Shown: positions 4,801-63,067 of the stretch, one piece after another
Position numbering within the stretch: position 1 is the stretch's first letter
Layout of the letters: each line of letters opens with the position of its first letter
Assembly (NCBI GenBank): GCA_947561395.2
Contig: OX387191.1
Location: forward strand, 38,023,439-38,087,438
Direction of reading: 5' to 3'
Length of the DNA stretch: 64,000 bases
From: Buxus sempervirens
Lineage: Eukaryota > Streptophyta > Magnoliopsida > Buxales > Buxaceae
The notes under the pieces: generated by a model
Databases searched by the model: none
The model's input: the letters and a program-made list of their open reading frames with translations, nothing else
What the model was told of the DNA's origin: nothing
Made by a program: the position numbers and the translations under genes

Positions 4801-4818
4801 AGTCTTTGAAAGAGCACT

Positions 4819-31183: not shown

Positions 31184-31290
31184 GTGTATCCGGTAACTCA
31201 GGCCGGATACACTTGGTCTGCAGGTGATCCGGCCTGAGTGACCGGATACACTGGGTTTGCAGGTGATCCGGCCTGAGTTACCGAATCACC
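31184..31290. repeat. hairpin array, GTATCCGG type
   Basis: Three inverted repeats lie in series with arms of the GTATCCGG / CCGGATAC or TGATCCGG / CCGGATAC type around loops of 5-8 bases, separated by about 15 bp. The same motif family recurs at 32290-32535. Confidence 0.8.
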
Positions 31291-31500
31291 CCGGAATGGC
31301 CTTTTTTGGGTTTTGGCCTCTCGGGATTGGTTCCAGGGGGTTCTTGGGACATTTTAAGAGTCTTGTGGGCCCCTGGATGGGCCCACGTATGCTCAGGTTT
31401 GGGAGAAGCCACACTTGGCTTCTCCTTTTGGGGTTTTTCCATCAATGAAAAAGGGGTATACAGCCATGGGGAAGGGGTTCATGCTTGCATTTCTACTAAC

Positions 31501-33240
31501 AACTGAACACAAAACAAACACTAAATAGCAGCATAACAGAGAAGCATGAGAATAGGCAGTAAATGATCAAGCATGCTTCCTACGAAACCTAGCAAGATTT
31601 GAAATTAACTACTTCATGCTTAAGCAGCAAAAAAACTTAGAGAAAGGAAGGAGAAGGGGGATTAAAGGGGTACAGCAGATCATATGATAAGGAGGAACAT
31701 GATCCTCAAAAAAAATGCCTAGAACTAAGCCTAAAACAGCAACTACAATGCCTTAGGAAGCGTGTGAAAATCGGATTCCTATACTCCCCAAACGATCCTA
31801 CGTGGGTTTCTTACATGTGATAACCCCCCATGCCATGCAAAACCCCATGACACAAAATGAAAGCTAATGCATGCATATACTAACATGAAAGTGCACTCAT
31901 GCAAAGAAGGAAGCAAAATGTAGAAAAATCACAAGAAAAATCTTGATTTAATATATGATGAGCATAACATGACCAGGAACCTTACCTAGGGGTCCTTAGA
32001 CTTTTACACGAGATGGAACCTCCTCCTTGAGACCAAGAGGTTGCTGGAAAGTCCACCGGTGCTCAAACTCCACTCCACCAGTAGCTAGCCTCCTTGGGTT
32101 TGCTTTAGAAAGTGAAGAAGAAAGAGAGGGAGGCAAGGATGGGCTAGTCTCGGGGTGGTAGGGAGGCAAAAGGGGGTTGAAGAGGTGAGGATTCGTGTGG
32201 AAAAAAAATGGAGGAAGGGAGCCAAGAACAACCAAAGAAAAGCCAACAACGAAAATGAGCTGCTGTTTTGGTATTTATAGAAAAACTAATGTATCCGGCA
32301 ACTCAGGCCGGATACACTAAGCCCTCCTCGTATCCGGACTTCAAGTCCGGATACACTAGCTTCCCTTTGTATCCGGCAACTCAGGCCGGATACATGACTT
32401 AATCATTTTGAAATTTAATGCCGCCGCGAATCTGTCGGCCAAGTGGCGCGGATTTCGCGCGAACACCTTTATGTATCCGGCTTTCAAGTCCGGCCATGAA
32501 GAATAGGCAGTGTATCCGATATATGCGACCAGATACAAATCAAAAAATTACGGATTTGCCCTTCGACTTGACTGATTGGACCGATTTGACCCTTTTTGAT
32601 ATCTACGGATCGCCCGTACGAATTTTTTATATTTAAGATTTAGTCCCTGAGATATCTTGTTCTTGGTGTTTTCGGGCTTGAAATCACTCCTAGCATGTGT
32701 GGAAATTTACTACCAACAAAACCCCTCAAAGAAATCCCTCCCATTTGGCCTAGGACTCGTTTTCACATCTCAACCCTAACATTTATCTAACATGCAATTT
32801 TTGGCTGAAAATGGGAAAACAAGGTTGGGGGGGTGTTGCTTACCTCTTGCAAACTCTTAAGCAAGCTTCCTAGCTTCTATTGCAACTCACGGACAACTCC
32901 TTAAGCTCCTCTTGGATGATTCCTCCGAAAATCTCCACCAAAAACCCACACGAAAATGGTTTCCTTTGTGTTTTCTCCTTCTTTTCTTGCAACCAAGCTC
33001 CTCCAATAGGTTGGAAATAGATGGGGGATGAAATGGGATGGAGATGATGAGAAGGAGATGAAGAGAATGAGAGTGGGAGAAGAGAGTGAAGAAGGAAAAG
33101 GTTCGGTCGTGAATGGCTTTTCCTTGGGTTTTCTCTCCACTTAAGTGAATTCCACAAGACACTAAAATTTGCAAGTTTGCCACTCCTATATTGCATAACA
33201 CTAACCACACTTATCCATTTTATCTCACATTAGGGAACCT
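31501..33240 (-). mobile_element. minus-oriented LTR promoter and leader fragments
   Basis: On the - strand a clear TATA box (CTATAAATAC, 32280-32271) is followed by a CT-rich leader and a donor-like GGTAAG near 31985, the layout of the other LTR leaders here. A second leader-like stretch (33100-32820, ending AGAGGTAAGC) suggests another LTR piece in the same orientation. No coding domain is visible. Borders are uncertain. Confidence 0.45.
32290..32535. repeat. hairpin array just upstream of a minus-strand TATA box
   Basis: Three near-perfect inverted repeats (arms GTATCCGGC/GCCGGATAC, GTATCCGGAC/GTCCGGATAC, GTATCCGGC/GCCGGATAC; loops of 5-7 bases) fill 32290-32394. Two looser ones lie at 32473-32495 and 32512-32535. 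The array begins about 10 bp upstream of the CTATAAATAC box on the - strand. Confidence 0.8.
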
Positions 33241-33604
33241 CATTTAACCAAATAGAAGTTGCTCACCTTCATAGGCTACTGACAGCCCGAGGCTTAGCCA
33301 CTTGACTGGCTTTAGGCTTGAGCTGCTCCAACTACACCTACACATCAGGCTCACTGATTAGGATGTGCTAGGGATATTGGAACAGGGTTTCACATATCAA
33401 GTCCTTGTGGTTATCTATACAGGTGATGTTTTTGGATTGGATGATCTATATCAATGCACACAACCACTCTTCCTTGTGTACTGTAATCTGAGAAATTGTC
33501 ATATATTATCATGATTATGTTAATCAGATTATTATGGCCCCAAAAGTAGGACTCGGGGATGGGTTTGTGCCCCGTATGGGCAGACCCAGTTCCGGGGCAC
33601 TACA
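33241..33604 (+). repeat. LTR distal fragment ending in CA
   Basis: The stretch ends CAGTTCCGGGGCACTACA and is followed at once by LINE reverse-transcriptase sequence, so 33604 is the right edge of an LTR inserted in the LINE. The left end is not identified. Confidence 0.5.
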
Positions 33605-33702
33605 GATACAATCTCCCCCTACTTGTTCATTTGACTCAACAAGTCCTCTCCGAAGCTCTGCACAATGTTGAAAACAATGGCTCTATAAAAGGGGTGCATA
33701 TC
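33605..33702 (+). mobile_element. LINE fragment 1 (reverse transcriptase)
   Basis: This encodes ISPYLFI and then QVLSEALHNVE, the block between the QGDPISPYLF motif and the catalytic FADD of L1-type plant LINE reverse transcriptase. The two parts are in different frames because one T is missing near 33637. It is bounded by an LTR on the left and solo LTR copy B on the right. Confidence 0.8.
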
Positions 33703-36700
33703 TGTAAGACCCCGGATTTTTGATTAGACTAATATAAGGAATTTGTTAATATTATTAAAAATAAATAATGAGGGATAATTCAAGTAGTTGTGTCGCAAGG
33801 ACAAGTTAGGAATTTCAGAAAAGTCAGCTTAGGTGAATTAAAGTGATTGATTCTTATATTATAATTGTAATATTTAAATAGATAATGTAAGATGAATTAA
33901 ATAGATTTAAGTAAGTAAAATTAGGATATAATTTCAGTACTTAAGAAGTTTTAATTAATAATTTTTGTTAGCTATTTAGATGGTGTTGATATTGCAATTA
34001 AGTGGCTAAATAAATTATTAAGGGATGATAGGCTGTTGGTGTAGGTGATATAGTGGTAGGGCATTACACTTGATAAAAAAATTAGAAGACAAACAGTTTT
34101 TTTTTTAACGTATGGGTTTTTGCTGGTCATAACCTTTGCAAATTAGAGAAGGCAAAACGGATGCAATAAACTCCACCGTTAGAGAAGGAAAAAGGGATGC
34201 AAATTATATCTGGGAGTTGAGGTGAGTGGAGAGGATTGCTGTTGGAGAAGAAAGAAGAAACATTGGTGCTGTTGGAGAGTGGGTGTCCTATTCAGTTAGA
34301 GAGTGGAATTCGTTCAAAAGAAAAACCCAGATTTGTAAACCAGTTTGTGAGGATTTCTGGGCGTGGAAAGCATTGGGTTTCATTGCTGGTTTATGCAAAA
34401 GTCGAACTCCAGAAATCAAGAGGCAAGTAGTTCTTCCAAAACCTTGCATTGTGTTGTTAAATTTCGGATTTTCCAGATTTGATGAAAACAGAGATTTACA
34501 GAAATTTGTTAGTAGGATATTGTTGATCTGAGTTTTATCCTTTGTATAGTTAGATAAAATTTGTATGGGATATTTGAGTTGTTTGGTTGGTTTCCTCAAC
34601 ATGTGATAATGCTTTGGTTAAAGTAGTGTGGTTTAGTTCTGAAGAAAACATGTTTTACCAACAGTTTTAAGTTAACAGCCAATGCAGAATTGTGATGAAA
34701 ACATGCGGCTGTTTGGTGTTTGGAGTTAAACCTGGTTCCAGCATATTCATCTTGTTCTAGTGAATTTATAGAAGATCAAAATGTCAATAAAAGAAAGATG
34801 TATCTGGTGCCAACCTCAGATGTTTCAAGTTAACATTCAAACCATTTCTTTTAGGAAACCATACGACTGTTGGTGGGTTGAGTCTTTTTCTGTTCATTGT
34901 GGACGTTTGGAATCCATGGGTCATTTCAGTCAAGGAGAATTCTGAACTATGCAAGTAGCACTCCTTTTTCCTTTGACTTGCGAACGGGATTTCGATTAGA
35001 ATGTGGCTTTCTTTGTTGCATCTGAGATTAAACGACTGTGAGCAATTTTATGAATGATTTATCTGGTTTGTGGTCGATTAGGATCAGATTAAATTCAAAT
35101 CAGTATTTCTGTATTGTTTGAATGATTTTCATGTGATTACAAGTTGTTTGGTTGGAAAAATATAGATCAGTCTTTGAGTTGTTGCATTGGTCGAAAGTTT
35201 GAAAAATTCCCGAAGTGAAAACAGACCTGGGGCTAACCTGCAAAGTTGGTGCCTATCTTGTAAATTTGGTGCTAACCTCCAAGAGGTTAGCACCAGACCC
35301 AAAATAACACTGCCGCCTAGTGCTTGGACCTGGTGCCAACCTAATGGACCTGGTGCCCAGCTCAAATAGGTTAGCACCAGATCAAAATATTAACAGAAGT
35401 GGGGTTGCTGTAATTTTTCTTGTATAAACTTATTTTTAAACATCTAAAACAGGTTTAAATGATTGTATTAAAGATGTTTAGCATTCCAGTAAACATAGGT
35501 AGATTTTTGGTGAAGTAAATTATGAATTTGCCTGAGAGAATAATTCAAACATTGGAAACAAATTGAGTGTAACAGTGGTAAATGCCAGAATAGAGGCTGA
35601 GGAAATCTGTTAGTGCTTTGAGGTGGTGTTTTTGATTTTTGTATCAAACTATTGGTCTCTGTTATAATTTCTTTTTTTTTTTAAGACCTGGTTATCAAAT
35701 GTGGATTTGGAAATAAGTGTGGTAAATCAAAGGGGATTATCGAATTGTCCATGGATATGAACTTAAGGCTCTTGTTGACTCATATAAATTTTGTTTATCA
35801 TATTTTTGAAATAACCTAAATTCTGTTTTGACCCGAAAAGTAAGAGAAATGGTTTCTTGACATATCGTTGAATTCTTTTGAGGAAAGATATAGACTTTTA
35901 CCGATTGTGGCAATTTTTATACACTTTTACTGTTGGATGATTTTAGTGTGTATTTGAAATTGAATTTGGTATTCTTAACTATATATGTTGGTTTCTTTTA
36001 ATAAAGGCATGTTTTATGATAATCTTACACGGCATACGATATCTTTTGTCAAAGTACTAGGGCGAGACTTAGTGTGGATCCACAGTCGAGTTGTAGTGAA
36101 TTTTGTATATTTTGTTTGGATTTAAGTATAGGGTTCCTTCATGCGTTTCCTCCATGATGGAGAGGCCTTCCATGAGGGAAGCGCTGCAGCAACTCCATTT
36201 CCACCATGATGGTGAGGTCACTTGAGTTTTTCCGCCATGAGGGCGACGATATTGGATGTTCGAGCTGTTGCAGTGTTAGACTGGATTGTCTGGAACTCTA
36301 GTGCTTAGCCACACAAAATAGATAGACTTCACGAGTCCCAATACATAAGATTTTCCGAATGTGATTGACGATGTATTTCCGAGATTAGACGGATTACCGT
36401 GGTTAATCGTCGTGTATTTTTAATTGTACATGTTTTAGTATTGTTACAACTATATTTTAGGCATGCATTGCTACTTGCTGAGATAGTCGTATCTCACTGT
36501 TTTGTTTTGTTTTCAGATCTCAGAGAGGACGATTCAGGCGGGTATATGCTTGGTTTAGGTGAGTTGGGGAAAATTTTAGTTGACTTTGATTATGTTGTTG
36601 CCATTTCATGTTTTCCTTACTCTGATATAGCGATCCTGTGTGAAAAGCTAACTCCTTGGGAACGAGTTACGATTTATTTCACGTAACCCGGTTCCGGGGT

Positions 36701-36706
36701 GTTACA
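33703..36706 (+). repeat. 3.0-kb solo LTR, copy B
   Basis: It runs from TGTAAGACCCCGG to CCGGGGTGTTACA with a perfect target duplication ATATC at 33698-33702 and 36707-36711. It lies within the LINE. The outer parts match copy A closely, while about 34080-35180 differs strongly. No internal domain is visible. Confidence 0.87.
35268..35294. repeat. hairpin in solo LTR copy B
   Basis: Arms GGTGCTAACCT and AGGTTAGCACC pair perfectly around a short CCAAG loop. A further GGTTAGCACC half-site lies near 35368. The arms match copy A apart from one T/C difference, while the loop differs. Confidence 0.8.
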
Positions 36707-36711
36707 ATATC

Positions 36712-37186: not shown

Positions 37187-37191
37187 AAGCT

Positions 37192-38999
37192 TGTGAGACA
37201 TGGGAAAAAATAAAAAATCCAATGACTTCCTCTATCATCACGCGGGATTAAATTAAACAAAGAGTCGCCACCATTCAATTTAGGTGTGAATGGACACCAA
37301 GATATTAAATAAGCACAAAAGGCAATTTTAGGGTAAAAATAACCCTCCTAAAAAGACAACCAGAGATGGGTAGGGGGATTAGGTTATGAACAGGGGAAGG
37401 TGTTAGGCACCCCTATTCATCCATACAAGGTGGTTGCCAGGTATTGTTCATGTTAAAATAAAGGAAAAAACTTGCTATAAAAATCACAAAAATCATAAAA
37501 AGGACAAAATTGTATGGTTTTTTCATACGAATAGTCTGATTGATCCAAAACTCTCAAATATGATCATACCATTCCTAGGGTTTCATGATCAAAACAAAAT
37601 TGAGATAAAATCAAATAAAATCAATTTAAAGTGAAAAATCCAGAAATCTGGCTTCAAGTCAAATTCTAGAAATCTATAAAAATATGATTTTTATAAAATA
37701 TTTCAAAATTGAACTTGAACAGTCCAGGACATAGGTATAGCCCATATTTCACATTAAATCAAAAAATAAAAACAAAAAAATACCCACGTTGATGAAAAAC
37801 ATCAAAAGGGGAGAACTTAGACCGTAGGGTCTTCTCTCAATAATGAAAAATGATTTAAAAACAACATTATGAAACCCTAGAGGTTATTTTCAGGCTTCTG
37901 GATCCAGATCTACCATATTGATCATGATAAATCCAAGATCTTAGCCTAAAATCACAAAAATCACAAAAACAGTGCTGTAGGTGCAAATATGTGGAAAATC
38001 CAAATTTTATCAAAAAGTGGGGATCTCATGCTATAAGCATCATAGATTCATGTTATTCATTCAGATTCAACATAAAAACCATTAAAACATGATCAAGATA
38101 TTTAAAGCAGCCACATCTCACATATTAGAGCACATGGGGGTCTGCCCTACGGATCCACCTATTCTCTTTTCCCCTAGCTCTCTCTTCACGTTTTACGGCT
38201 AGAGAGACTCTTGAGGTACTTGTGGTAGGTTTGGTTACACAAGCACAATCAGAGGCTTTATTCTAAAAAAAAAGAGAAAAACAGATATGGGGTTCTATTC
38301 TAGGGATCCACCTGTTTTCTTTTCCCCTAGCTCTCTCTTCACGTTTTACGGCTAGAGAGACTCTTGAGGTACTTAGAGACAAGTTTAGGAATACAAGTAC
38401 AAAAGATATGGCCTTATTCTACAGCAATAGAGAAGATCCTGTTACTTCTAGAATTGAAGACAGAAAATAAAAGGGAAAAGGGACTTACCTGGATTGAGCA
38501 AGCAAGGCAGCAGGGGTTCTTCTCTTCTCTTGGAGCTTCTTAGACTTCAAATTTTCGTGGCCTTTTGCTTGAGGAAAGACCCTCTATTTATAGGCAAACA
38601 TAGGGGTATGGTTGGTCCAAGGTTTGGCAAGATAGAGTTTCAATTTGAGTTAAACACAAGATCATGCCCATCCTTTATCCACAAAGATATTTCGCACGAA
38701 TAAAATATATAATTCGCTCATTTAAAGGGATATTGGACTAAAGATAAGGCTCAGAAATCGAGAGAAGAACAGAACTCACACGAGTCTAGAATGCCCGTAA
38801 ATGATTTACGGTCCAACGGTGCCCGTATTTCCAATATGGGCGCGCCTGAACGTAGAGACATTTTGGGCGCGACCGGCCCGTGAATAAAATACGGGCAAAG
38901 CATGCCTTGTCAGTTTTTATGCATTTTTGACCTGTTTTAAGCTCTAATTACATGTTTTTACTATTTTCTCATTCTGTAGTGCAATTTGGGGCGTCTACA
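37192..38999 (-). repeat. 3' LTR of the Tat element
   Basis: 1808 bp, TGTGAGACATGG to GCGTCTACA on the + strand. On the - strand a TATA box CTATAAATAG lies at 38593-38584, about 200 bp downstream of a hairpin array. GAGTCGCCACC near the left edge is a phrase common in this group. Confidence 0.92.
38793..38897. repeat. hairpin array in the 3' LTR U3
   Basis: Three inverted repeats: CCCGTAAAT/ATTTACGG, GCCCGTATT/AATATGGGC and CCCGT/ACGGG across GAATAAAAT. They lie in U3, upstream of the LTR TATA box. Confidence 0.8.
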
Positions 39000-39017
39000 G
39001 CTGCCCCCTCTTTGCTG
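39000..39017 (-). other. polypurine tract of the Tat element
   Basis: On the - strand AGCAAAGAGGGGGCAGC abuts the 3' LTR. Confidence 0.75.
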
Positions 39018-39332
39018 GTAATTGGAACCAATTACAAGCAGAGAGTGCAAAGACTCACCAATTGCACTTGTTGAGATCTTTGTCTAACTAATTGCATTTT
39101 TCAAGGATTGAATGAATGAAAAAGGATTTATTGTGGAAGATTTGCTAAAAGTCCCTTAGCTTAAGGGCCAAATCCTCCTCTCACTGAGCTTTCGTGGCTA
39201 TGAAGTGAGATTTGAGACAAAATTTTTAAACAAAAGTGGGTAAGATGGCAATCCTTGCAACTTACAACTAATATAAACATTAATCTCCTGAAAAGTGTGG
39301 AGAAAATAATAAAATATACAATTTTATGCTTC

Positions 39333-39434
39333 GCCCGTATTTTCCTTACGGACAGATGCTGCCCGTAATTGTTCTACGGACGAAAGGGACCGAATTACCT
39401 CCACGGGCGTCTGCTGCCTGTACTGATTTTACGG
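39333..39434. repeat. hairpin array upstream of the antisense mobile-domain gene
   Basis: Four inverted repeats with CCGTA/TACGG-type arms (GCCCGTA-TTTTCC-TTACGG, GCCCGTA-ATTGTTC-TACGG, then two weaker units), about 30 bp apart. A CT-rich, 5'-UTR-like stretch follows (39450-39800), with a donor-like TGTAAGTGG at about 39816. Confidence 0.7.
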
Positions 39435-40854
39435 ATTTTGGGGTTCTTTTTAACCGCGGCCGCGAACTTCTTTTCTTCTCTGCTCGCACTTCTGCCCTAA
39501 TTCTCTCGCGCCCGTATCTTTTTCTCCGGTCTTCTTCTCCTTCGACAGTGCACGTCCACTCCGGTACTTCCCATCTTCTCTGGCAACTATTCCTCCGGCA
39601 ATTCTCACATTTTCTGGCGATGACCTGCTTCTCCTCCTTTTCGAGTTACTGTTCCTTCGGCGACCTTCTTGCTTCCTTGGGCGACTGTTCCCATTTCTTC
39701 TTCCATTGCCGCAACTGTCTTCTTAACTTCTGGTGTGCTCAATCGTGGATATTCCTTGTTGACAATCCAGTAAAGGTTCCATTTTTACTTGCAAATTCTC
39801 ATTTCGACTATCACATGTAAGTGGCCGTTCTTTCTTTGGAACAATACCTCCATGGCTGAGTGAAATTTTGAACCTTAAATTCCCTATTTGCATTGGACTG
39901 ATTTGATTTTTGTTGTACAATTCCTATGCTCTTGAATTCTGGAATAATTAAAACTCCCAAGCATTGGTTTGTTCATCCTTGTGACATGCTGCTTCTTCTT
40001 GTGAATCATGCACCCGAAATAACACTTGCCATTTTGCATTCTTGAATGGTGGAAAACTCCAAACGCTGGCTCGTCGATTACTGTGACCTGCTAATGCTTG
40101 CAATTTTTCTGACCCATACTTGATTTCTGTTTTGAATTTCTGCTTTAATCTTGTATACTTTCTATTGAAATTCTGACTTCCTTTTCCATTGATCATCATG
40201 GAGCAATTTGCCGTTGCCATTGGCTCATCCTCATATAACATGTTGCTTGCATCTGTTTATGCTTTCATTTCAATGTTCTGATTGTAGCAAATGCAAACCA
40301 ATGCCTGATTTTTGCTTTGAAAACCTTAGCTTGAGTTGTACACTCGTGGGTTTGAATTAATTGATTCTTTGACTGGATTTGATGTTGAACATCTTGTCCA
40401 ACTGTCTTGGCATGAACACAATAGATTTTTGGCTTTGCCTTTCTTCTGTTACCTAGTCTCAATACAAGTATGCTTGAACTTTTATCCTGAAACCAAGTAA
40501 ACTCAAATGATCAGGTATCTTTAGAAAATACAAAGGAAAAAACTAAAACCAATTTTTAGCACACATTTTTTCTTTCTCTTTTTTTTTCTATTTATATAAA
40601 GAGAATATACAAGAAGCCTGTGCTTCTTATAAATTTTATATACTTTCTTGATTAAAGCAAAGGCAACTAAAATATCTCAAGACAGAAAAGTAAACTCCTT
40701 CGATTATCTTCTGATTTGGTCGGGAGCTTCTGAATCATTCTCTTCCATTTTCCATTTTCCATTTCCTGCAAATCAATTAAACTTGGTTAAAATGAAAATC
40801 AAGCAATAAAATTTTTAACAAGAATAATGAACATCTCCCTGATTTGAACCATAG

Positions 40855-43746: not shown

Positions 43747-43953
43747 ATTAGGATTCCTTTATGTATTTTGTATTCTTGACAAAAGTGATGTACACATTCA
43801 TATATATATAAAAGAAGTTTGATTTTTATTCATTTCTGCTCTTTTCTTCTTTGTTTTCAGCTTTTATTGCATGATGAATGTTAAAGCAGGGACAGGTGAA
43901 GCTTAGGGAAAAAAGGAAATTAAAATTTCCCACTTTTTTGCATTTTCTGAAGG

Positions 43954-44084
43954 AACCGTACTTATACTACGAGCAATATATGCCCGTAATGTTAATATGA
44001 GCGCACTCCGCTCGTGAATTGTTCACGGTCACGTGTGTCCGTATTCTTTATACGGGCGCTCTATGCCCGTATTATAGTTACGGA
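43954..44084. repeat. five-unit hairpin array before the antisense DUF7745-like gene
   Basis: Five units in series, arms of the GCCCGTA/TACGGGC kind with variants (CCGTA/TACGAGC, GCCCGTA/TATGAGC, GCTCGTG/CACGGTC, GTCCGTA/TACGGGC, GCCCGTA/TACGGAT). Loops are mostly 5-8 bases and spacers about 5-10, giving a period near 28 bp. The array ends 25 bp before a TATA box. Confidence 0.82.
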
Positions 44085-44108
44085 TTTTACTGCCTTAACG
44101 ATTTTTTC

Positions 44109-44116
44109 TATATAAA
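44109..44116 (+). promoter_or_regulatory. TATA box of the antisense DUF7745-like gene
   Basis: CTATATAAAC lies 92 bp upstream of the ATG at 44208 and 25 bp downstream of the hairpin array, a normal distance for a plant core promoter with a short 5' UTR. Confidence 0.65.
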
Positions 44117-44207
44117 CTCATGGGGAACGTCATTGTGACACTTTTAATAGTTTGAAAACTCCCTGAGCACGTCGTTTCTCGCTTTCCTTGGCTTCTTTGG
44201 CGCTTCC

Positions 44208-52126: not shown

Positions 52127-52232
52127 TAATGGGGGTAGTTTGGACTTGGCTGTGGAAGTCTGAGCCAGGGGAACATTAACAACTAATGGTGGAAGTTGTT
52201 TTGGTTGGGGGGTTGCAGAAATGACTGATGCA

Positions 52233-54056
52233 CTAAGAGGGCCACAGTTTTATGACCAATGGTGGTTTGGAGTGAATCGGTGAAGTAAAGGTGGATGGAC
52301 TGCAATTGATGACCAACGGTAGTTTTGCAATGTTCATTTGGGCCATGAGGGATGAGACTCGGTCCAGAGATGAGCTAATGTTCTTTGCAGCACTATCATT
52401 CCCTTTTGAAATTACATTTATTTCTTTGTCCTCATTTCTTCTGTCAAAATACACTCTGACCGTTGTCCCTATAGGAGCAATCAATTGAGATGGGTCAAAG
52501 GTTATTTTGTCAGAGGAGATGACCCCTATGATATTAGATGGGCCTGCCCCATGATGTTGGGGCAGCGGGTTTTGTCCAATATCAGTTCTTGGAGGATTGG
52601 GAGCCCCTGTATTGAAAGACAGGGTATTCTGGTCTAATAAATCCTGAATGGCATGTTTCAAAGGCCAACACTTGTCAGTAGGATGCCCAGGTGCACCCAT
52701 ATTGAAATCACAAGTGGTGGAGGGGTCATAATTTCTCCCCTTAGATGCATTCGGATTGGGCTCTCTTAAGGTGATATATCCTGCCTGCAATAAAGTGGGC
52801 AGCAGCTGAGAAGGAGTCATTGGAATAGGGGTGAAAACCCTATTTCTCTTTGCTGCAAAATAGGCATCCTTTTCCTCCTTAGTAAAAACCCTTTTTTGGT
52901 CTGAAGGTGCTGCTGGAACATTAACCCTCATATGGGCCTGGGTAGATGGAACAGATGGAGTAGGAAAATGAGCAGGTATGTTGATTTGTATGGGCTTGTT
53001 AGGGCCAGATGGTGGCTGTACCATGTTCACCTCCCCTTCTTTCTTGTTCCCATTCTTCTTAATCCCACTTCTTTTCTTCAGATTAGGGTCCTGTTGACTA
53101 ACCATGGTAGAGTGGTCAACTATCTTACCTGATCTTATCCCGTCTTCAATTCGGTCAGCCACTTGGACTAAGGCAGCAAAATTAGTGGTGGTCTGACCCA
53201 CCAAATGGCTGTAGAATGGTTGACCCAATGTGCTGATGAAAGTGGAAATCATCTCCTACTCTAGCATAGGTGGCCTAACTTGAGAGGCTGTCTCCCTCCA
53301 TCTCTTGGCATACTGCCTTACAGTCTCATCCCTTCCTTTGCTCATTCTCATTACGTCGTACCTGTCTGGCACGATCTCTGAATTGAACTGGTATTGAGCT
53401 AGGAAGGCATCTGCTAGGTCCTTCCATCTTCTAATCTTTCCATGGTCTAGAGTAGCGAACCACCTCAATGCGGTTCCAGTCAGGCTCCTTTGGAAGAGCT
53501 GAATCAGAACACCTTCATCCCGCCCAAACTGGCATAGGGCACCACAGTATAACTTCAGATGGCTCATGGGGCAGCCCGTGCCATCATACTTGTCTAGGTC
53601 TGGGCACTTGAACTTAGCCGGCTGGTTAACATTGGGTTATAGGCAAAAATCCTCAAAGTTGGTGCCCCCGAAGTTGCTCACCCCTTTTACTTCTCTAAGT
53701 TCATCTTGGATCATTTCCAGTTTGTGCAGGAACTTTCTTTCAACCTCTTCCCTTATCCTTTCCTTTTCCTTAGCTTTGTCTGACTCAACTGTCTCATCCC
53801 TGATCAGTATAGGTTCAGGGGTGGGTTCATAGACGGGTTCAGGAATTGGTTGCACTGGAGGTGGAATATTGATTTGGGGTGGAGGTGCAGGGTTGGAAGT
53901 GGATGCTTGATTTTGGGCTTGGATTTGTTGGGCCTGCACTTGTTGGGCCTGCACGGACAATATGTTCTCTATCATTCGGGCTAGTCCTGCTACTTGTTCT
54001 TGGAGCAGGGTAACATCTGGATGAGGAGCATCAGCTTCATTCTCAATGGGATTCAT
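52233..54056 (-). pseudogene. gag: Tat element gag
   Basis: The region starts MNPIENEADAPHPDV, followed by a Gln/Pro-rich stretch and a coiled coil. The capsid block has FQRSLTGTALRWFATLD, DAFLAQYQFN and RDETVRQYAKRWRE (Retrotrans_gag family). A CDFNMGAPGHPTDKCW zinc-knuckle-like stretch follows near 52700. It is broken in more than one place. Confidence 0.88.
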
Positions 54057-54284
54057 GGCGCGAGCTCTTGATCTGGTTACAGGAGCTATGATTGCAAGTG
54101 TATTGGTACCTGGGGGAAAATAAAAAATATATCAATGCCCATTTAATCTCCTTCACCTACCTAGGAATGCCTATGTGCTAGCTGGGTGAACACGAGTTTG
54201 GATTTGTTTTTTATTTGCTTCTCTTTTTTTTATTTTTTTATTATAGAATTGTTGGAATATTCTAGGGCTTCCAACAGGTCCCAT

Positions 54285-54910
54285 AAGAGAAAAAGATCTG
54301 AAATTCAAAGGCTTTCAGAGGCCCTGGAGTTTTTTGGAAAAAGTCTGAAATTCAAAGGCTTTCAGAGGCCCAGGAGTATTTTTAGAAAAAGCCTGAAATT
54401 CAAAGGCTTTCAGAGGCCCCGGGGTATTTTTGCAAAAGGTCTAAAATTCAAAGGCTTTCAGAGGCCCAAGGATATTTTAGAGAAAGATCTGAAATTCAAA
54501 GGCTTTCAGAGGCCCAAAAGGTTAAAGTGTGAAATTCAAAGGCTTTCAGAGGCCCAAAAGGTTAAAGTCTGAAATTCAGAGGCTTTCAGAGGCCCAAAAG
54601 GATAAAGTCTAAAATTCAAAGGCTTTCAGAGGCCCCAAAAGGTTAAAGTCTGAAATTCAAAGGCTTTCAAAGGCCCAAAAGGTTAGAGTCTGAAATTCAA
54701 AGGCTTTCAGAGGCCCAAAAGGTTAAAGTCTGAAATTCAAAGGCTTTCAAAGGCCCAGGGTTTTTTTTTTTGGAAAAAGTCTGAAATTCAAAGGCTTTTA
54801 GAGGCCCAAGGATGTTTTGAGAAGAAGTCTGAAATTCAAAGGCTTTCAGAGGCCCAAGAGCATTTTTGAAAAAGATCTGAAATTCAAAGGCTTTCAGAGG
54901 CCCAAAGATA
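54285..54910. repeat. ~14-copy tandem repeat in the Tat leader
   Basis: The core GAAATTCAAAGGCTTTCAGA plus GGCCC recurs about 14 times with linkers of 12-25 bases (AAAAGGTTAAAGTCT and variants). Tandem arrays in untranslated parts are usual for the Tat clade. AAAGGCTTT is itself palindromic. Confidence 0.9.
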
Positions 54911-55041
54911 TATTTTTTTTTTTATTCATTCATTTTTTTTTTTGAAGCATTTTATTCAAACTCGTCTCCCTTTCATCATTTGAGGGTTAAAGGAACAGGA
55001 TTTAAGTGAGAAAAACTGATTATAATTGAATTCTCCGCTAA

Positions 55042-55180
55042 GACCGTATAAACAGTACAATCCGATTGTGCCCGTATTTAAATTACGAGCAAGTCGCGAC
55101 CGTATGATTAATACGGGCAAGCCCAGACCGTATAATCACTACGGGCGAGCCCAGCCCGTATTAAAACTACGGTTTTACGG
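55042..55180. repeat. five-unit hairpin array in the Tat leader
   Basis: Very regular units: [GCCCGTA or GACCGTA], 6-8 bases, TACGGGC or TACGAGC, then 7-10 base spacers containing AGCCCA. The period is about 29 bp. Same motif as the arrays at 39333 and 43954 and in both LTRs. Confidence 0.85.
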
Positions 55181-55199
55181 AGCTGCTTTATGTTTCTTC

Positions 55200-56378
55200 A
55201 GTTTTTTTTCATGGTTTGATCACTTTGATTGCTCATCCTAACATATGGTTCACCCATGCTGGGCCTCTAAATTATCCCAAAGTGGACTTTGAACTATTTG
55301 CAAAAATACATGCTTAGGAGGGAACATGTTCCTTCCAAATTGACACCATACTCATACTTTGGTACCATTTTGTTGCCTCTTGTACAAACATTGGGTAGTA
55401 TTGATTCTAAACAGAGTTAGAGACTCTTCCAATGGGCTACACCATGCTTAAGAACCATGCATATTTGGGACCAATTTTGTCCCCAAACCAATGGGCACCC
55501 TGACACCCCTATGACATGAATACCTTGCAGAAAAATAGGATTACCTTGTTACCTTGTTTACCTTCAATATGGCATCCGCATTATGCCCTGGTTTGTAAGC
55601 CATGCAAACGGCCTTCTCACAATTACAAACCCATATTCCCACGTAATTGTGTATTTTAGCCAAAAACGTGTATCTCCACCTTCAAGCGTAGGGGTTTTGG
55701 GTTTTGGCTTAATGGCAACTTAGCACTCAAGCCTAGTGATGACCAGAATCCCAGATCCACGTTATCATCACATCATTGGCCCAAAGTTCTAAGGTAAATT
55801 TTTTCACTTTCGCTTTCCGAAGTATCGACCTCGTTGCGCCAAGCTACACACATTCGGTTTCAACTTCCTATAGGTTAAGGGTAGGCTGTGTAAAAAAATA
55901 AAATGTGCACAGTGCATTGTAAAAATAGGGTGCATTCACAATGTCCCAAACCCTTGCCACTCTTTTCGCAGCCATGCATAAACAAACCAAGGCATAATAG
56001 GAAAGCATATTTAAAGTAAATAAATACACAAACAATCCTATAGCACCTAAAACATGCTCATAAAAAAAATCATCTAATCATGCAAACATATGATCATGTT
56101 ATACACCCAAAAACGCATCATGGAGATCATGCTGAAAATTAAAACATGCTATCATAAAAATATAGCAAGAAATAAACATGGTTCAGCAAAACGAACCTCC
56201 CCTACGCATGTTTGTAGAAACAATCCTATAAATCAAAATTAAGCATGTTTCTACCCCCATGAATTCTTAAGCAATGATTCAGATTTAAAACATACCCAAC
56301 ATGCTTAAGAACACAAAATAGCAAGCAAATCAAAAAATCAAAACATGAACAAACACCAAAAGGCTCAAATCCTCAAGT
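55200..56378 (-). other. Tat element 5' leader, non-coding
   Basis: AT-rich leader between the primer-binding site and the repeats; no ORF of note. Some Tat elements carry an ORF1 here; I see none. Confidence 0.6.
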
Positions 56379-56396
56379 CCCCAGCAGAGTCGCCAG
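56379..56396 (-). other. primer-binding site, tRNA-Arg type
   Basis: On the - strand TGGCGACTCTGCTGGGGA lies 2 bases inside the 5' LTR. It matches the 3' end of plant tRNA-Arg as known for Ogre/Tat elements. Confidence 0.85.
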
Positions 56397-56398
56397 TT

Positions 56399-58196
56399 GT
56401 GAGACATGGGGAAAAATCAAAAATCCAATGACTTCCTCTATCATCATGCGGGATTAAATTAAATAAAGAGTCGCCACCATTCAATTTAGGTGTGAATGGA
56501 CACCAAGATATTAAATAAGCACAAAAGGCAATTTTAAGGTAAAAATAACCCTCCTTAAAAAAACCAGAGATGGGTAGGGGGATTAGGTTATGAATAGGGG
56601 AAGGTGTTAGGCACCCCTATTCATCCACACAAGGTGGTTTCCAGGTATTGTTCATGTTAAAATAAAGGAAAAAAAGGCTTGCTATAAAAATCATAAAAAT
56701 GACAAAATTGTATGGTTTTTTCATACGAATAGTCTGATTGATCCAGAACTCTCAAATATGATCATACCATTCCTAGGGTTTCATGATCAAAACAAAATTG
56801 AGATAAAATCAAATAAAATTAATTTAAAGTGAAAAATCCAAAAATTTGGCTTTAAGTCAAATTCTAGAAATCTAGAAAAATATGATTTTTATAAAATATT
56901 TCAAATTTGAACTTGAACAGTCCAGGACATAGGTATAGCCCATATTTCACATTAAATCAAAAAATAAAAACAAAAAATACCCACGTTGATGAAAAACATC
57001 AAAAGGGGAGAACTTAGACCGTAGGGTCTTCTCTCAATAATGAAAAACGATTTAAAAACAACATTATGAAACCCTAGAGGTTATTTTCAGGCTTCTGGAT
57101 CCAGATCTACCATATTGATCATGATAAATCCAAGATCTTAGCCTAAAATCACAAAAATCACAAAAACAGTGCTGTATGTGCAAATATGTGGAAAATCCAA
57201 ATTTTATCAAAAAGTGGGGATCTCATGCTATAAGCATCATAGATTCATGTTATTCATTCAGATTCAACATAAAAACCATTAAAACATGATCAAGATATTT
57301 AAAGCAGCCACATCTCACATATTAGAGCACATGGGGGTCTGCCCTACGGATCCACCTGTTCTCTTTTCCCCTAGATCTCTCTTCACGTTTTACGGCTAGA
57401 AAGACTCTTGAGGTACTTGAAGGTAGGTTTGGTTACACAAGCACAATCAGAGGCTTTATTCTAAAAAAAAGAGAAAAACAGATATGGGGTTCTATTCTAG
57501 GGATCCACCTGTTCTCTTTTCCCCTAGCTCTCTCTTTACGTTTTACGGCTAGAGAGACTCTTGAGGTACTTAGAGACAAGTTTAGGAATACAAGTACAAA
57601 AGATATGGCCTTATTCTACAGCAATAGAGAAGATCCTGTTACTTCTAGAATTGAAGACAGAAAATAAAAGGGAAAAGGGACTTACCTGGATTGAGCAAGC
57701 AAGGCAACAGGGGTTCTTCTCTTCTCATGGAGCTTCTTAGACTTCAAATTTTCGTGGCCTTTTGCTTGAGGAAAGGCCCTCTATTTATAGGCAAACATAG
57801 GGGTATGGTTGGTCCAAGGTTTGGCAAGATAGAGTTTCAGTTTGAGTTCAACACAAGATCATGCCCATCCTTTATCCACAAAGATATTTCGCACGAATAA
57901 AATATATAATTCGCTCATTTAAAGGGATTTTGGACTAAAGAGAAGGCTCAGAAATCGAGAGAAGAATAGAACTCGCATGAGTCTAGAATGCCCATAAATG
58001 ATTTACGGTCCAACGGTGCCCGTATTTCCAATACGGGCGCGCCTGACCGTAGAGACATTTCGGGCGCGACCGGCCCGTGAATAAAATACTGGCAAAGCAT
58101 GCCTTGTCAGTTTTTATGCATTTTTGACCTGTTTTAAGCTCTAATTACATGTTTTTACTCTTTTCTCATTCTGTAGTGCAATTTGGGGTGTCTACA
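56399..58196 (-). repeat. 5' LTR of the Tat element
   Basis: 1798 bp, homologous to the 3' LTR with a few percent differences. The TATA box CTATAAATAG is at 57790-57781 on the - strand. Confidence 0.92.
57991..58095. repeat. hairpin array in the 5' LTR U3
   Basis: Same site as 38793-38897. Here the middle hairpin is perfect (GCCCGTATT/AATACGGGC), while the first and last are weakened. Confidence 0.8.
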
Positions 58197-58201
58197 AAGC
58201 T

Positions 58202-59636: not shown

Positions 59637-60860
59637 TAGGGGTGCTCATCGGGCCGGCACGGCCCAGCACGCCAACGGGCCGGCCCGGCACGGCTCGCCC
59701 ACTGTATCATGCCGTGCCAAGCTGGGGGGATGTGCCATCAGCCCGTATAGGCACGGCCCAGCACACCAACGGGCCGGCCCGGCCCGGCACGGCACGCCCA
59801 CTATAGCGTGCCGTGCCAGGCCGAGGGGACGAGCTATCGGCCCGTATAGGCACGGCCAGCCAGGGCACATGGCCTGCGGGCGGCACGGGCCCATTTTGAC
59901 ATGGGACGGCACGCTATGGGGCACACCCAACTAAGTTAAAGAAAATCGAAAACGTCAACAGCAGGGTTCGAACCTAGTCTAACAGATTTCAAGTCTGTCT
60001 CCTTAACCACACGGATATATCAACTTCTTGCATCAATAGTATCATAAAATTATGTTAAGTGAAAATTAAGGATACCCCCACGATTGTTGGAAAATATAAT
60101 TACAAAAGCCCTTATATAATCATTAAAAGCTAAGAAAATAATTAGGTATAAATAAGCCCAAAAAGATGTTATAAAATCTCCAATTAAATATATTTGTTAA
60201 ATCTATGATTTTTAATTAGACTACTTCAAGTCTTTAATGGGTGTAATTCTTCGTTTCATTCTCCTGCAGTACAATGTACGTTTCTATTGAGCATCTCTCC
60301 TCCATGCTAAATTACTGTCCAAATCCTAAACTATCTTAAAGCAAAACCTTAAATAATCAATTTGTAACTTAATACACAAATACTATTCCTGAAAAGACAA
60401 CAACGCATCTTCTTAAGGCCACTAGCAAACATTTTGTAAGAAAAAGATAGATGAGTGGGTGCCAACCTAGTTGTAATGTGCTCATACTATAGTGATGCAG
60501 TATTATTTGTAAAGTTGTATTATTTGCAAAGTTGTTCTTGTACTTGCAAGAATTAATTTATTTACATTTTTTGAGCAAAATCTATCATATTATGTGTAAG
60601 ATAATTTTGTGAATTTTTCAGAATTTTTAATCATTTTTTTCCTATTTTATGGATTTTTTTGAATTTTTTTTAAAAAATAGAGCCTGGCCCGTTTGACCTA
60701 GCGGCGGCCCACCGGCCTAGCACGGCACGGCCCAGCCCCGCGCATGCCGCGAGCTGGGCCGTGCCAGGGTATTCGGCCAACGGGCCAAGCGTGCCGTGGC
60801 CTGCCCGGCACACCCCAGTCGTGCCCAAGCCGTGGCGGACCGGCCCGTTGAGCACCCTTA
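59637..60860. mobile_element. non-autonomous hAT transposon with GC-rich ends
   Basis: It starts TAGGGGTGCTCA and ends TGAGCACCCTTA, near-inverse termini. Flanks are an 8-bp target duplication with one mismatch (CGCCTTAG 59629-59636; CGCATTAG 60861-60868), the hAT signature, and it splits the LINE RNase H end (ADAL...AKF). Both ends carry dense GGGCCGGCACGGCCC-type motifs (59650-59900 and 60685-60850) around an AT-rich, non-coding core. No transposase is present. Confidence 0.88.
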
Positions 60861-60868
60861 CGCATTAG

Positions 60869-61009
60869 CAAAGTTTACTGTTGAGGATTTCCCGTGTTTT
60901 TGGATTAATCATCCTCCGGTATTCGTAACCCCTCTTACGGGGTTCATATGTAAGAACTATCAATCGGATTTATTAATTGAACGGTTATTTCACTACCCAA
61001 AAAAAAAAG
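60869..61009 (+). mobile_element. LINE fragment 4 and 3' end
   Basis: The frame resumes at AKFTVEDFPCFW, finishing the RNase H region. The LINE tail ends in a run of ten A at about 61000-61009, a plausible poly(A) tail. Confidence 0.7.
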
Positions 61010-61241
61010 ATATTGACTCTAGTAGTGCGTGGGGTCCATCTCCTTAAATGTTTTGCCAGGCTGAAGAGGTTATTCAATGTTACGATGGGTTATGAGGAGA
61101 TATGTGATTACCTCCTGCGGGAAAGATATGTTACCTTCTGTGGGGGAGATATAGTTCCGATGAGACTACATCCTACAGGGGAGATACCTCATGTGGGGGA
61201 GATGTGATTACTACGTGATTGCATCCTACATGGGAGATAAG
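61010..61241. other. short spacer with GGGGGAGAT repeats
   Basis: Repeated GGGGGAGATATAG / GGGGGAGATGTGATTAC-like phrases. No gene is seen. Confidence 0.5.
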
Positions 61242-63067
61242 TGTAAGCACCCAAATTTTGATCAAACCAAAATATGCTAAAATGAAAGCCCCAGCGGGAA
61301 GGTCAAACCCTAGGGAGAAAAAAGTGACTTTCTGCCTGAGCTCAAATTGTTTGCTATACCCTATCCCAATGGGTAGAGAATCCCGACACGGTTCCAACGC
61401 AATTAAGTTTACGTGAATCGGAGCCCGGATGGAAAAGATATGAGCAAAGCAGTCCTAGGGGCAAATCAGTCAAACTTTAAAATGTCTTAGTTAAACTAAT
61501 TAAAATAAAGGAGGAATAATAAAAAATCAGAGGAGTTTGATTCATCCGTGTAGGTGGCTGAGTCACCTCAGCCATCAACTCAAGCCAAAAAGGGGAGAGA
61601 AAAGGGATTTTTTCGGCCACCGTTTGCACGAGCCAATCACAGCGTGCGGTGGATGAAAAGCAATCGCACTGTAAGTGCAGTTCACTTTTTGTCAACCTGC
61701 GCCCGCGGCAATTTGTCCCCTAACGATTGCTGAAAAGACGCGGTCGAACCGCACATACCCTGCAGTTTTGACCAAACCGCACGTACTGTGGGGTTTCGAC
61801 CAAACCGCATTACTTGTGCGGTTTTGTCTCTGTGTTAGATAAATAGAAAATCCAAACAGTAAGCAGGGGTTGGATGGTTTTGGTTTTGCTTCCCCTTCGC
61901 CCCTTGAATGAAACCTACCATTGACCACCTCTCCAAGACTTGGATCTCCTTCAACTTTTCCTCTCAAGAACCCCCTAAAACATCACCTCAAGGCTTCCAC
62001 ACATTCTTCTACCCTCTTCTCCCTCATCCCAAAGACTTGAAGGAGAACAAGGTGTTGCCGGGTGGTGGAGGAGAGGCTCTTCTAGCTGCTGCTCTTGCCT
62101 CAAGAAAGCTCAAAAACACTTCAAGAAGGTATGTAGACCCCCAATGTGAGCTTCCCTTTACCTTTTGTTCAACATATATGGAAACAAGCTTGATCCAAGT
62201 GCTTTGAATAAATTGTGTTCTTCGTATGGTGTTTCTTTTTTTGTACTAACATACTTCCTTCCCTTCTTTCATATTTTACATCTTCTCCTTGGGAAATAGA
62301 ACTCTCATGGTAAGGAGAGAATGAGGACTCTAAGGAAGGGAGGATGAGAGGGGATTGTCTACATGGTTTAAAGATTTTTAAGCTATTATTTGTTTCTTTA
62401 ATCAATGGAGCTTGTTCCCTTCCTTTTCGTTCTCATGTACCCCATTTATAAGCCCCATTATCCTTCTCTTGTGTGTTTCTTTTATGTTCATGATGGTTGG
62501 TTTTTGGCACCCTTTAAAAGCTTGGTTTCACCATCATTCAATGTTCATGAAATGTACATATGCATGCATAGGAAACCCTACATCATGCTCCCCTTTTTCC
62601 CCCATTTTCTAGTCACCATTTTGTATGTTTAGTAGCATCTTTCCCTCTTGGATAGTTGCTGCTCCAGCGTGTCCCCTCATGGCTCTGGTGATAAAAAAAA
62701 CACCTTCATGGGCTTTCTGGTGGGCCCACACAAAGAAAATCCAAAAGACAGCAACCCATTGTTTTGACTTCATGCTATTAGCCTAGACTTTTGTTTTACT
62801 GTCTTGGAAGCCTACACACAAGTTAATCGAGCCAATTCACCTAAATTCCGACTCATGGAAACCTGCTATCTAGCGGTGTAACTCAAGGTGTCCATGGACT
62901 TCCCTGGGTTACAACCGAACCACTTATCCAAAATCTCTGGTACACCAGCCAAACTTAAATCCACAAATCAAAAATTGGGTGGCTATTCTCACCCTCAACG
63001 ATGAACAGTGGTGACTCCCCAAAACCAACCAAAAACCCACGGAAAGCCGGGCACGACATCGTGCGCA
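61242..63067 (+). repeat. 5' LTR of the right-hand Tat-like element
   Basis: 1826 bp. A hairpin array at 61743-61828 is followed by GATAAATAGA (61838) and a CT-rich leader (61900-62040), then AGAAGGTATG with a possible splice donor. The LTR ends CGTGCGCA, six bases before the primer-binding site. The partner LTR is outside the window. Confidence 0.7.
61743..61828. repeat. hairpin array, AACCGCA type, before a TATA-like box
   Basis: Three units in series: GAACCGCA/TGCAGTTTT, AAACCGCAC/GTGGGGTTT and AAACCGCA/TGCGGTTTT, loops 5-7 bases, spacers about 6 (GACCA). The period is about 28 bp. It ends about 10 bp upstream of GATAAATAG. Confidence 0.78.

Follow-up and report, generated by a model that had tools for sequence, protein, structure and literature searches.

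Introduction

Palindromic repeated motifs are known from the Sireviruses, plant retrotransposons of the Ty1/copia type. According to the excerpted account (PMC2829016), the LTRs there hold many copies of family-specific palindromes ahead of the TATA box, and 9 of 13 elements have further copies before the extra gene ENV; a CGG-CCG core is present in 12 of the 13 elements, clusters of the motif are linked to CpG islands, and the motifs are described as Sirevirus-specific. Motif arrays in noncoding regions, differing between related elements, are also found as VANC targets in VANDAL elements, whose motif is bound by an element-encoded DUF1985 protein that removes methylation (PMC5735166, PMC10398659). 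In Retand elements of the Tat lineage, antisense genes occupy the region from pol to the 3′ LTR, and family-specific tandem arrays accompany them (PMC11963269).

We have analyzed a window of 64,000 nucleotides of Buxus sempervirens, for which an initial annotation had described recurring hairpin arrays and knew of no named feature matching them. Such a feature does exist, namely the family-specific palindromic repeated motifs that precede the TATA box in Sirevirus LTRs (PMC2829016).

Results and Discussion

Perfect dyads with 7-bp arms and gaps of 3-12 bp number 89 in the window compared with 31 ± 5 in 50 shuffles (largest value 49), and 37 dyads lie at most 100 bp from another one compared with 2.9 in the shuffles (largest value 9). 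Searching for three dyads with a constant pitch (fixed-pitch scan) gave 14 loci, compared with 0-2 in 10 shuffles; several of the 14 are simple repeats or ordinary tandem repeats. The four motifs named in the initial annotation are present at their positions, and their arrays are more regular than had been claimed. The window also has 39 TRF rows, some overlapping, and Rfam names only a tRNA in it.

The main array carrier is not a Ty1/copia element as in the Sireviruses but a Ty3/gypsy element of the Tat lineage, with its primer binding site at 56394 and the following parts:

37191-58196, minus strand: Ogre-type (Tat) Ty3/gypsy element, 21 kb, LTRs 37191-38999 and 56397-58196
48427-49614, minus strand: RT-RNaseH (Pfam)
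47873-48439, minus strand: RVT_3 (Pfam)
46799-47560, minus strand: rve (Pfam, score under Pfam's cutoff)
40855-43746, plus strand: antisense gene A (plant mobile domain), first ATG at 40855
44208-45850, plus strand: antisense gene B (DUF7745/plant mobile domain)

A second RNase H between RH and integrase is common to Ogre and Retand elements, and 57% of Ogre elements have an extra ORF with a plant mobile domain (PMC6317226, excerpted); both are found here, the former by Pfam. For gene A the first intron was inferred from GT-AG and the later exons and the end were placed by reading alone, while the two exons of gene B were inferred from GT-AG and open frames. The antisense genes of Retand elements usually encode TRP28 (PMC11963269, in the part seen), whereas here they belong to PMD/DUF7745. 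DUF1985 was not found in five antisense ORF pieces at E values up to 10, a range in which the HMMER filters drop most very weak matches. Among the 20 ORFs searched, Pfam, the only method applied to ENV-like genes, named no ENV, and no relatives of the RT piece or of the gene B piece were present among the viral contigs searched.

Arrays of the Ogre-type element

The dyads of the element are arranged as follows:

57991-58092, minus strand: U3 array of the 5′ LTR, four dyads NCCGTA-N7, pitch 28/27/28
38794-38895, minus strand: 3′ LTR copy of the U3 array, four dyads NCCGTA-N7
55043-55173, minus strand: leader array, five dyads in 28-bp steps
39334-39435, plus strand: gene A array, four dyads, ~1.4 kb before the first ATG of gene A
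43955-44084, plus strand: gene B array, five dyads, upstream of antisense gene B

Counting the LTR once, there are 18 dyads in four clusters of 4-5. The assignment of the arrays to LTRs thus holds for U3 and is too narrow for the Ogre motif, which occupies three further regions, namely the leader and the regions upstream of both antisense genes; in the Sireviruses further copies are placed before ENV. The ORF spans, which include introns and the gaps between ORFs and cover 61% of 39000-58196, contain 0 of the 18 dyads, and with the test made by cluster the placement of 4/4 clusters outside these spans has p ~0.02.

The half-sites CCCGTA/ACCGTA are exactly 7 bp apart, and all 14 steps across the four clusters measure 27 or 28 bp. 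Since three clusters mix both step lengths, only the leader cluster passes the fixed-pitch scan. The profile scan that located the arrays had gap-7 units as its training set, which biases it toward this gap; two less biased tests are given here. At gap 7 the exact pentamers CCGTA (n=21) and TACGG (n=18) of 39000-58196 form eight inward pairs. The remaining gaps between 0 and 25 yielded a single pair, at gap 15, and in 20,000 trials of random placement no gap had more than two pairs. Half-site profiles built from a single cluster, with gaps of 0-20 allowed, place 11-12 of the top 20 other dyads of the window at gap 7, both LTR copies being among the dyads counted; any of the clusters gave the same outcome.

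The pairwise identity among 15 units (the weaker later units 39389, 43983 and 44011 were left out) is 0.84/0.77 in the half-sites, 0.34 in the spacer and 0.34/0.32 in the flanks. As there is one copy of the element, the replicates are clusters and not copies. Observed/expected CpG is 1.29-1.98 in the four arrays compared with 0.41 in the whole element, the motif itself containing CG. Between the 5′ and 3′ LTR arrays 5 of 114 positions differ, and by reading all five fall within half-sites. The sites are thus not protected once inserted, and the half-site conservation should therefore stem from the transposing lineage.

This regularity could be inherited and unselected if neutral palindromic tandem repeats had spread by slippage, as tandem duplication could passively carry along a fixed gap and pitch; tandem repeats are common in the window, as the TRF rows indicate, and Retand elements often have family-specific arrays (PMC11963269, excerpted). 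We consider this origin unlikely, however, because half-sites, gap and pitch are kept in four separate clusters while spacers and linkers are near chance identity, the spacers having diverged without a change of gap, and because the two LTR copies, once inserted, readily came to differ in their half-sites.

Pairing and folding

A further explanation is that read-through transcripts fold and the hairpins yield small RNAs that feed silencing, as has been proposed for the palindromes of maize Sireviruses, over whose clusters small RNAs are in excess (PMC10760457, PMC5311732, both in excerpt). All ten arrays that were folded are more stable than the shuffle mean (z -1.9 to -10), so that the part of the initial annotation that saw possible hairpin RNA stands as far as the ability to fold is concerned. 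However, arms of the 18 Ogre units pair in 81.7% of cells compared with 83.4% in shuffles, and 460 of 500 shuffles are as high or higher. This is the refuting condition that the initial annotation had set for its own proposal. Pairing is hence not constrained in these units, and arm changes without pairing beyond that of shuffled columns speak against selection for hairpin RNA. The base that borders the hexamers on the outside does pair in 17 of 18 units (14 GC, 3 GU) and the first hexamer position is unpaired in 12 of 18; extension of the stem into the spacer does not exceed that in shuffled columns. Furthermore, hairpins do not require an exact gap and a 28-bp pitch, and the gene A array has a weak fold (z -1.9). 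The eight GTATCCGG units of the window lean toward covariation (43 and 30 of 500 shuffles), and there are some paired changes in the 25.9- and 61.8-kb units; these are also what silencing hairpins would predict. Overall we regard such hairpins as an improbable explanation of the arrays.

Other arrays in the window

Besides the Ogre-type element the following dyads were found:

32292-32392, minus strand: three dyads TATCCGG-N9-CCGGATA, pitch 39 bp, two weaker dyads at 32474 and 32513
31184-31290, minus strand (borrowed from the preceding array): second TATCCGG-N9 array, three dyads, pitch 39 bp
25898-25972, plus strand: three dyads ACYGTA-N7, pitch 28 bp, TATA box at 25988
61747-61823, plus strand: three dyads AACCGCA-N7-TGCGGTT with mismatches, 28 bp, one more at 61662 (61.7- or 61.8-kb array)
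23358-23385, no strand: GGTGCTAACC dyad, gap 8, in solo LTR 21756-24783
35268-35294, no strand: GGTGCTAACC dyad, gap 7, in the related LTR 33703-36706
13.3-13.8 kb: row of dyads GGCGGTA-N5-TACCGCC, ending at TTGTAGTG

The arms had been thought to be unrelated between families. The GGTGCTAACC family does stand apart, with two clear dyads of gaps 8 and 7 and without CG, but the arms are not all unrelated: the Ogre, 25.9-kb and 61.7-kb arrays share NCCGYA-N7 and the 28-bp pitch, the pattern behind this match having been picked after the sites had been seen. The N7/28-bp geometry with ACCGTA or ACCGCA is common to the 25.9- and 61.8-kb promoters, which are regarded as homologous; with the sequence upstream of the arrays alone this homology was not found (best E 0.32). 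In the eight TATCCGG-N9 (GTATCCGG) units of the two arrays the identity is 0.90/0.82 in the half-sites, 0.37 in the spacer and 0.34/0.35 in the flanks. Observed/expected CpG is 1.18-1.98 in seven of eight arrays and 0.69 in 31184-31290, compared with 0.52 in the window; these are ratios and not formal island calls. No coding region was identified for the carriers of the GTATCCGG, 25.9-kb and 61.8-kb arrays.

The start of the 28.2-kb LTR is homologous to the 61.2-kb LTR (71%); we rejected it as an array carrier, its array region having instead two CACGTG boxes 26 bp apart. The row at 13.3-13.8 kb resembles CACTA subterminal repeats, a feature of DNA transposons and not of LTRs. In the identity analysis 3 of 10 CACTA-like units were out of register, and their averages are left aside. 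An exact two-unit pattern had no match among the viral contigs searched. In betaproteobacterial MAGs it matched three stretches, of which one MAG contributed two; this number is somewhat above the ~0.2-0.5 expected by simple arithmetic.

TATA boxes beside the arrays

The following boxes were located:

32272-32279, minus strand: TATAAATA, 11 bp from the 32292-32392 array
44109-44116, plus strand: TATATAAA of antisense gene B, 24 bp past its array
57782-57789, minus strand: TATAAATA of the Ogre 5′ LTR, 201 bp from the U3 array

Together with the box at 25988, 15 bp beyond its array, the first two are the cases of a canonical box close to an array. The claim that three arrays end 10-25 bp before a TATA box needs correction: in the Ogre LTR a TATATATT is located 82 bp from the array, and the 61.8-kb array has only GATAAATAG at 61838, by reading ~15 bp off. 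No canonical TATA box lies within 260 bp of the gene A, leader, second GTATCCGG and 61.8-kb arrays; the second GTATCCGG array is ~1 kb downstream of the box at 32272-32279. One GGTGCTAACC interval has a canonical box at 42 bp, the other none within 260 bp. In 3 of 13 hand-chosen intervals a canonical box occurs within 30 bp, compared with 3.2% of random positions on one strand, and TATA proximity is modest evidence. One antisense gene of the Tat lineage, that of Grande, reportedly has its own promoter.

The three cases of dyads close to TATA boxes would also suit cruciforms that are extruded by the dyads and open the promoter DNA. This we hold to be very improbable, as many Ogre dyads have mismatched arms, with the unpaired first hexamer positions mentioned above, and neither a shared half-site sequence nor a fixed pitch would be needed.

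Comparison with known systems

As in the Sireviruses, the unit is a palindrome with dyad symmetry. Sirevirus motifs are present in at least eight copies per element; the Ogre-type element has 18, with the LTR counted once, and GTATCCGG has eight over two arrays. Copies upstream of the TATA box in the LTR are found at 201 bp in the Ogre-type element and at 11 bp at 32.3 kb, the LTR status of the latter being taken from the initial annotation. The CGG..CCG core is present in TATCCGG-N9-CCGGATA, whereas the Ogre and 61.8-kb motifs run CCG..CGG; the Citrus Sirevirus motif AATCCGGCTWRCCGGATT has ATCCGG..CCGGAT in common with the 32-kb array (PMC2829016). The table in the excerpted source gives a fixed short gap for each motif, and that source mentions no pitch between units (PMC2829016). 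In a check of the 32-kb LTR for Sirevirus features, the tRNA-Met primer binding site pattern was absent from the window, and a Sirevirus-like purine tract occurs in it only at 29936-29937 on the minus strand.

Like the VANC targets, the Ogre arrays consist of short motifs in noncoding regions across one element; VANDALs, however, are DNA transposons, and the excerpts do not describe the VANC21 motif YAGTATTAY as a palindrome (PMC5735166, PMC10398659). For Retand arrays the excerpted source likewise describes no palindromic array (PMC11963269), whereas the Ogre arrays are palindromic. Among the literature matches listed, none reports palindrome arrays in Ogre elements, which is a weak indication.

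Probable arrays of dimer sites

We think it probable that the arrays are cis-regulatory promoter modules, composed of double-stranded dyad sites for a candidate dimeric protein. The fixed spacing suggests a paired DNA-binding protein rather than a folded RNA, and the suggestion in the initial annotation that the arrays are sites for dimeric factors agrees well with the fixed gap and pitch, the conserved half-sites and the chance-level spacers. The location of the Ogre dyads outside the ORF spans and the retained CpG of their arrays also speak for this reading. Each dyad would be the site of one dimer, and the fixed pitch would allow several dimers to sit side by side on an array. Binding, its possible cooperativity, the control of transcription and the nature of the binder, which may be a host factor or element-encoded, are what we infer from this architecture. 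The palindromic NAC site CGT-N7/8-ACG (PMC4081100, excerpted) was considered and rejected, the Ogre dyads being CGT-N9-ACG and hence of the wrong spacing; ARF/B3 inverted repeats and further factor motifs were among the candidates considered.

With a single site type at the LTR U3, the leader and both antisense genes, one factor could act throughout the element. Going further, we propose, as a speculation with the odds clearly against it, an element-wide operator in Ogre: one rigid dyad in 28-bp phase, present in the leader and at both the sense (LTR) and the antisense promoters, might be read by the PMD/DUF7745 protein of an antisense gene. Such an operator would set the activity of the element or act against silencing, and its evolution would proceed through concerted shifts of the half-sites, e.g., from ACCGTA to ACCGCA.

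Our findings suggest that LTR promoters with palindrome arrays occur outside the Sireviruses as well and that the Ogre arrays extend the palindromic repeated motifs known from this other plant retrotransposon group. Gap and pitch, set against pairing, provide a simple test separating protein sites from silencing hairpins. The function of the antisense genes of the Tat lineage (Retand) and of the nearby tandem arrays is described as unknown (PMC11963269, in the part seen). A rigid site common to sense and antisense promoters is a concrete candidate operator, by which the role of the antisense genes becomes approachable.

Regularly Spaced Dyads in the Window

The stretch, from which all the sequence evidence given here is drawn, is packed with plant-type transposable elements (plant mobile domain, Tat-type pol) and contains 89 perfect dyads, i.e., inverted half-sites around a spacer, with 7-bp arms, compared with a mean of 31 and a maximum of 49 in 50 shuffles. 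Dyads of this type lying close to another dyad number 37 (mean 2.9, maximum 9 in 50 shuffles). The arrays listed in the initial annotation are real and non-random, though in part misdescribed there. A sequence-blind scan of the window for three dyads at a single fixed pitch (the distance between consecutive unit starts) returned 14 loci as against zero to two in ten shuffles. Since these loci take in plain tandem and simple repeats (e.g., at 1477, 28840, 54345-54781, and 63210) and shuffling also wipes out tandem repetition, the scan demonstrates regularity and not function. The leader alone passes among the four clusters of the Ogre element; the other three fail because 27- and 28-bp steps are mixed.

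Several further repeats were observed. A row of GGCGGTA-N5-TACCGCC dyads at 13298-13821, which presumably resembles the subterminal region of a CACTA transposon, terminates at TTGTAGTG. As this octamer recurs at 24163 and at 36091 and no CACTACAA start is found near the row, this end is weak evidence. Thirteen copies of GCCATTAATTGGC (up to two mismatches), CCAAT-like on the minus strand, are spaced mostly by about 25 or 33 bp at 17275-17633; the GCGCTCGAG palindromes annotated initially lie further along the same element. GC-rich GGCACGGC repeats stand close to both ends of 59650-60860, ends which look inverted by eye, and this stretch includes a tRNA match (59953-60024, minus strand).

One Geometry in the Ogre Element

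The CCCGTA/ACCGTA dyads are carried by a 21-kb Ty3/gypsy element of the Tat lineage.

37191-38999 and 56397-58196, minus strand: Ogre LTRs, 96.7% identical
directly after the 5' LTR: primer binding site GGCGACTCTGCTGGGG
40855 (first ATG) to about 43746, plus strand, opposite to the element: gene A, plant mobile domain
44208 (ATG) to 45850, plus strand, opposite to the element: gene B, DUF7745/PMD
57991, 58019, 58046, 58074: dyad starts in the LTR, the other LTR being alike
39334, 39362, 39389, 39417: dyad starts 5' of gene A
43955, 43983, 44011, 44038, 44066: dyad starts 5' of gene B
55043, 55071, 55099, 55127, 55155: dyad starts in the leader

We take the primer binding site to be of the tRNA-Arg type. 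The pol domain order is RT-RH-RVT_3-INT (Pfam), the integrase being a fragment that scores below Pfam's cutoff. According to PMC6317226, Ogre and Retand are marked by an additional RNase H domain placed between RH and INT, and 57% of Ogre elements have an ORF with the plant mobile domain. Introns of genes A and B (in gene A the first alone) are inferred from GT-AG borders and open frames. The sense gag-pol (46799-54131) is split across several ORFs; the antisense exons examined are open. A 40/48-bp tandem repeat is present in the leader as well (54289-54909), in about 14 units, seven of them with TCTGAAA-N9-TTTCAGA intact; its spacer is conserved, so that this repeat looks recently amplified.

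Within the four clusters the pitch is 27 or 28 bp in 14 of 14 steps, with 7 bp between the hexamer half-sites. The element, 3' LTR excluded, has 21 exact CCGTA and 18 exact TACGG. Of the inward pairs that these form at gaps from 0 to 25, eight have gap 7 and the only other one has gap 15; random placement gave at most two pairs at any gap in 20,000 trials. When profiles of single clusters were searched in the whole window at gaps 0-20, both LTR copies counted, 11, 11, 12, and 11 of the top 20 other dyads had gap 7. Mean pairwise agreement among 15 units, leaving out three weak ones found later, is 0.84 and 0.77 in the half-sites, 0.34 in the spacer, and 0.34 and 0.32 in the flanks. None of the 18 dyads lies inside an ORF span, though these spans, introns and inter-ORF gaps included, cover 61% of 39000-58196 (p about 0.02 with clusters as replicates). 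Comparing the array between the two LTRs shows 5 differences in 114 positions, all five in half-sites and none compensated according to the unit table. The sites are thus not kept constant after insertion, so selection on them, if any, must act in the transposing lineage.

Arrays Outside the Ogre Element

A second geometry belongs to the TATCCGG-N9 family (GTATCCGG):

32292, 32331, 32370: TATCCGG-N9-CCGGATA, first set, 39-bp pitch
31187, 31226, 31265: variants, second set, 39-bp pitch
32474, 32513: weaker copies

Its eight units give 0.90 and 0.82 for the half-sites, 0.37 for the spacer, and 0.34 and 0.35 for the flanks, the same contrast as in Ogre. The GGTGCTAACC dyads in two related LTRs have gaps of 8 and 7, and the fixed-pitch scan of the window returned no array of them.

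The arms had been called unrelated between families, which does not hold for the Ogre, 25.9-kb, and 61.8-kb arrays, as these have the half-site and N7 in common. With up to two mismatches allowed, the pattern ACCGYA-N7-TRCGGT, picked after the sites had been seen, matches the window 22 times (1.8 expected, maximum 8 in 100 shuffles). All but two (23078 and 48456) fall within arrays described here, and seven of these 20 are outside the Ogre element:

25898, 25926, 25954: 25.9-kb dyads, 28-bp pitch, TATA box 15 bp on, absent from the initial list
61663, 61748, 61776, 61804: matches in the 61.8-kb region

These two promoters share homology (64% over 151 bp, E 2e-12); in the part downstream of the array identity is 69% over 49 bp (E 0.001), and in the upstream part alone no homology was found (best E 0.32). 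At the fifth base of the half-site one promoter has T throughout its three units and the other has C throughout its three, matched by the corresponding change on the opposite half-site; six half-sites have thus shifted in concert with the geometry retained. The Ogre LTR has no similarity to either promoter at E 1e-3. That different families have a half-site in common speaks for either a host factor or an ancient shared origin of the arrays.

The LTR at 28240-28510, whose start is homologous to the 61.2-kb LTR, lacks ACCGYA dyads and carries a pair of CACGTG boxes at a distance of 26 bp, possibly a turnover of site type. In the 2595-9563 element, an 84-bp tandem repeat (5448-5688) includes two near copies of CCGTA-N5-TACGG (5448, 5611), identical to Ogre in half-site but different in gap.

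Promoter Position and CpG

Three arrays were initially placed 10-25 bp before a TATA box. A canonical box lies within 30 bp of three of 13 intervals chosen by us (11, 24, and 15 bp), compared with 3.2% of random positions on a given strand, and this proximity lends modest support to a promoter role. In the Ogre LTR the box is 201 bp from the array (TATATATT at 82 bp), and none was found within 260 bp of the gene A, leader, second GTATCCGG, and 61.8-kb arrays. The first TATCCGG-N9 set is 11 bp upstream of a minus-strand TATA box, the second about 1 kb downstream of that same box. CpG observed/expected is 1.29-1.98 in the four Ogre arrays versus 0.41 in the element and 0.52 in the window, and is low in one of eight arrays (31184-31290, 0.69); as the motif itself contains CG, CpG retention is not independent of motif conservation.

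Protein Sites or Hairpins

The arrays had also been proposed as sources of hairpin RNA. Selection for pairing should show itself in compensating changes between the arms. The 18 Ogre units give no sign of this: 81.7% of cells pair compared with 83.4% with partners shuffled, 460 of 500 shuffles being at least as high. Twelve of the 18 units lack pairing at the first hexamer position, and the base immediately outside the hexamer pairs in 17 of 18 (14 GC, 3 GU); lengthening the stem into the spacer did not change the outcome (72.8% vs. 74.1%). The eight GTATCCGG units lean to covariation (43/500 for cells paired, 30/500 for the score) through three outer pairs, and the six units in the arrays at 25.9 and 61.8 kb gave 112/500 and 26/500 owing to one position. 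Ten arrays, one of them trimmed to 150 bases, can fold as RNA strands (z -1.9 to -10), and this is a consequence of palindromes whatever their origin. Dimers sitting next to one another on double-stranded DNA need just such a constant gap, a constant pitch, and spacers free to vary.

Comparison with Known Systems

Bousios and colleagues described palindromic repeated motifs in 13 Sireviruses, mostly with a CGG-CCG core. According to that study (PMC2829016) these precede the TATA box within the LTR and, in nine of 13, also stand upstream of ENV; they are linked to CpG islands, are absent from the other Ty1/copia elements compared there, and in PLACE match mainly stress-related sites with no common binder. 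The paper adds that repeat arrays, sometimes palindromic, often make up the cis-regulatory regions of various elements, so this kind of array is already known. The Ogre array works alike, but it sits in an element other than a Sirevirus and is therefore not classed with those motifs. A second working model is given by VANC targets (PMC5735166, PMC10398659), motif arrays spread over the noncoding regions of an element whose own anti-silencing protein reads them. DUF1985 (VANC-type) was not found in the five Ogre antisense ORF pieces searched. The account of Retand (PMC11963269) gives the function of its tandem arrays as unknown and its antisense proteins as predicted to bind DNA, which makes it plausible that a candidate element-encoded protein reads the Ogre dyads. 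Among the literature matches listed, the Ogre-wide use of rigidly phased dyads would be new, and the arrays, judged from one copy of one element, are most likely promoter modules of phased, putative dimer sites.
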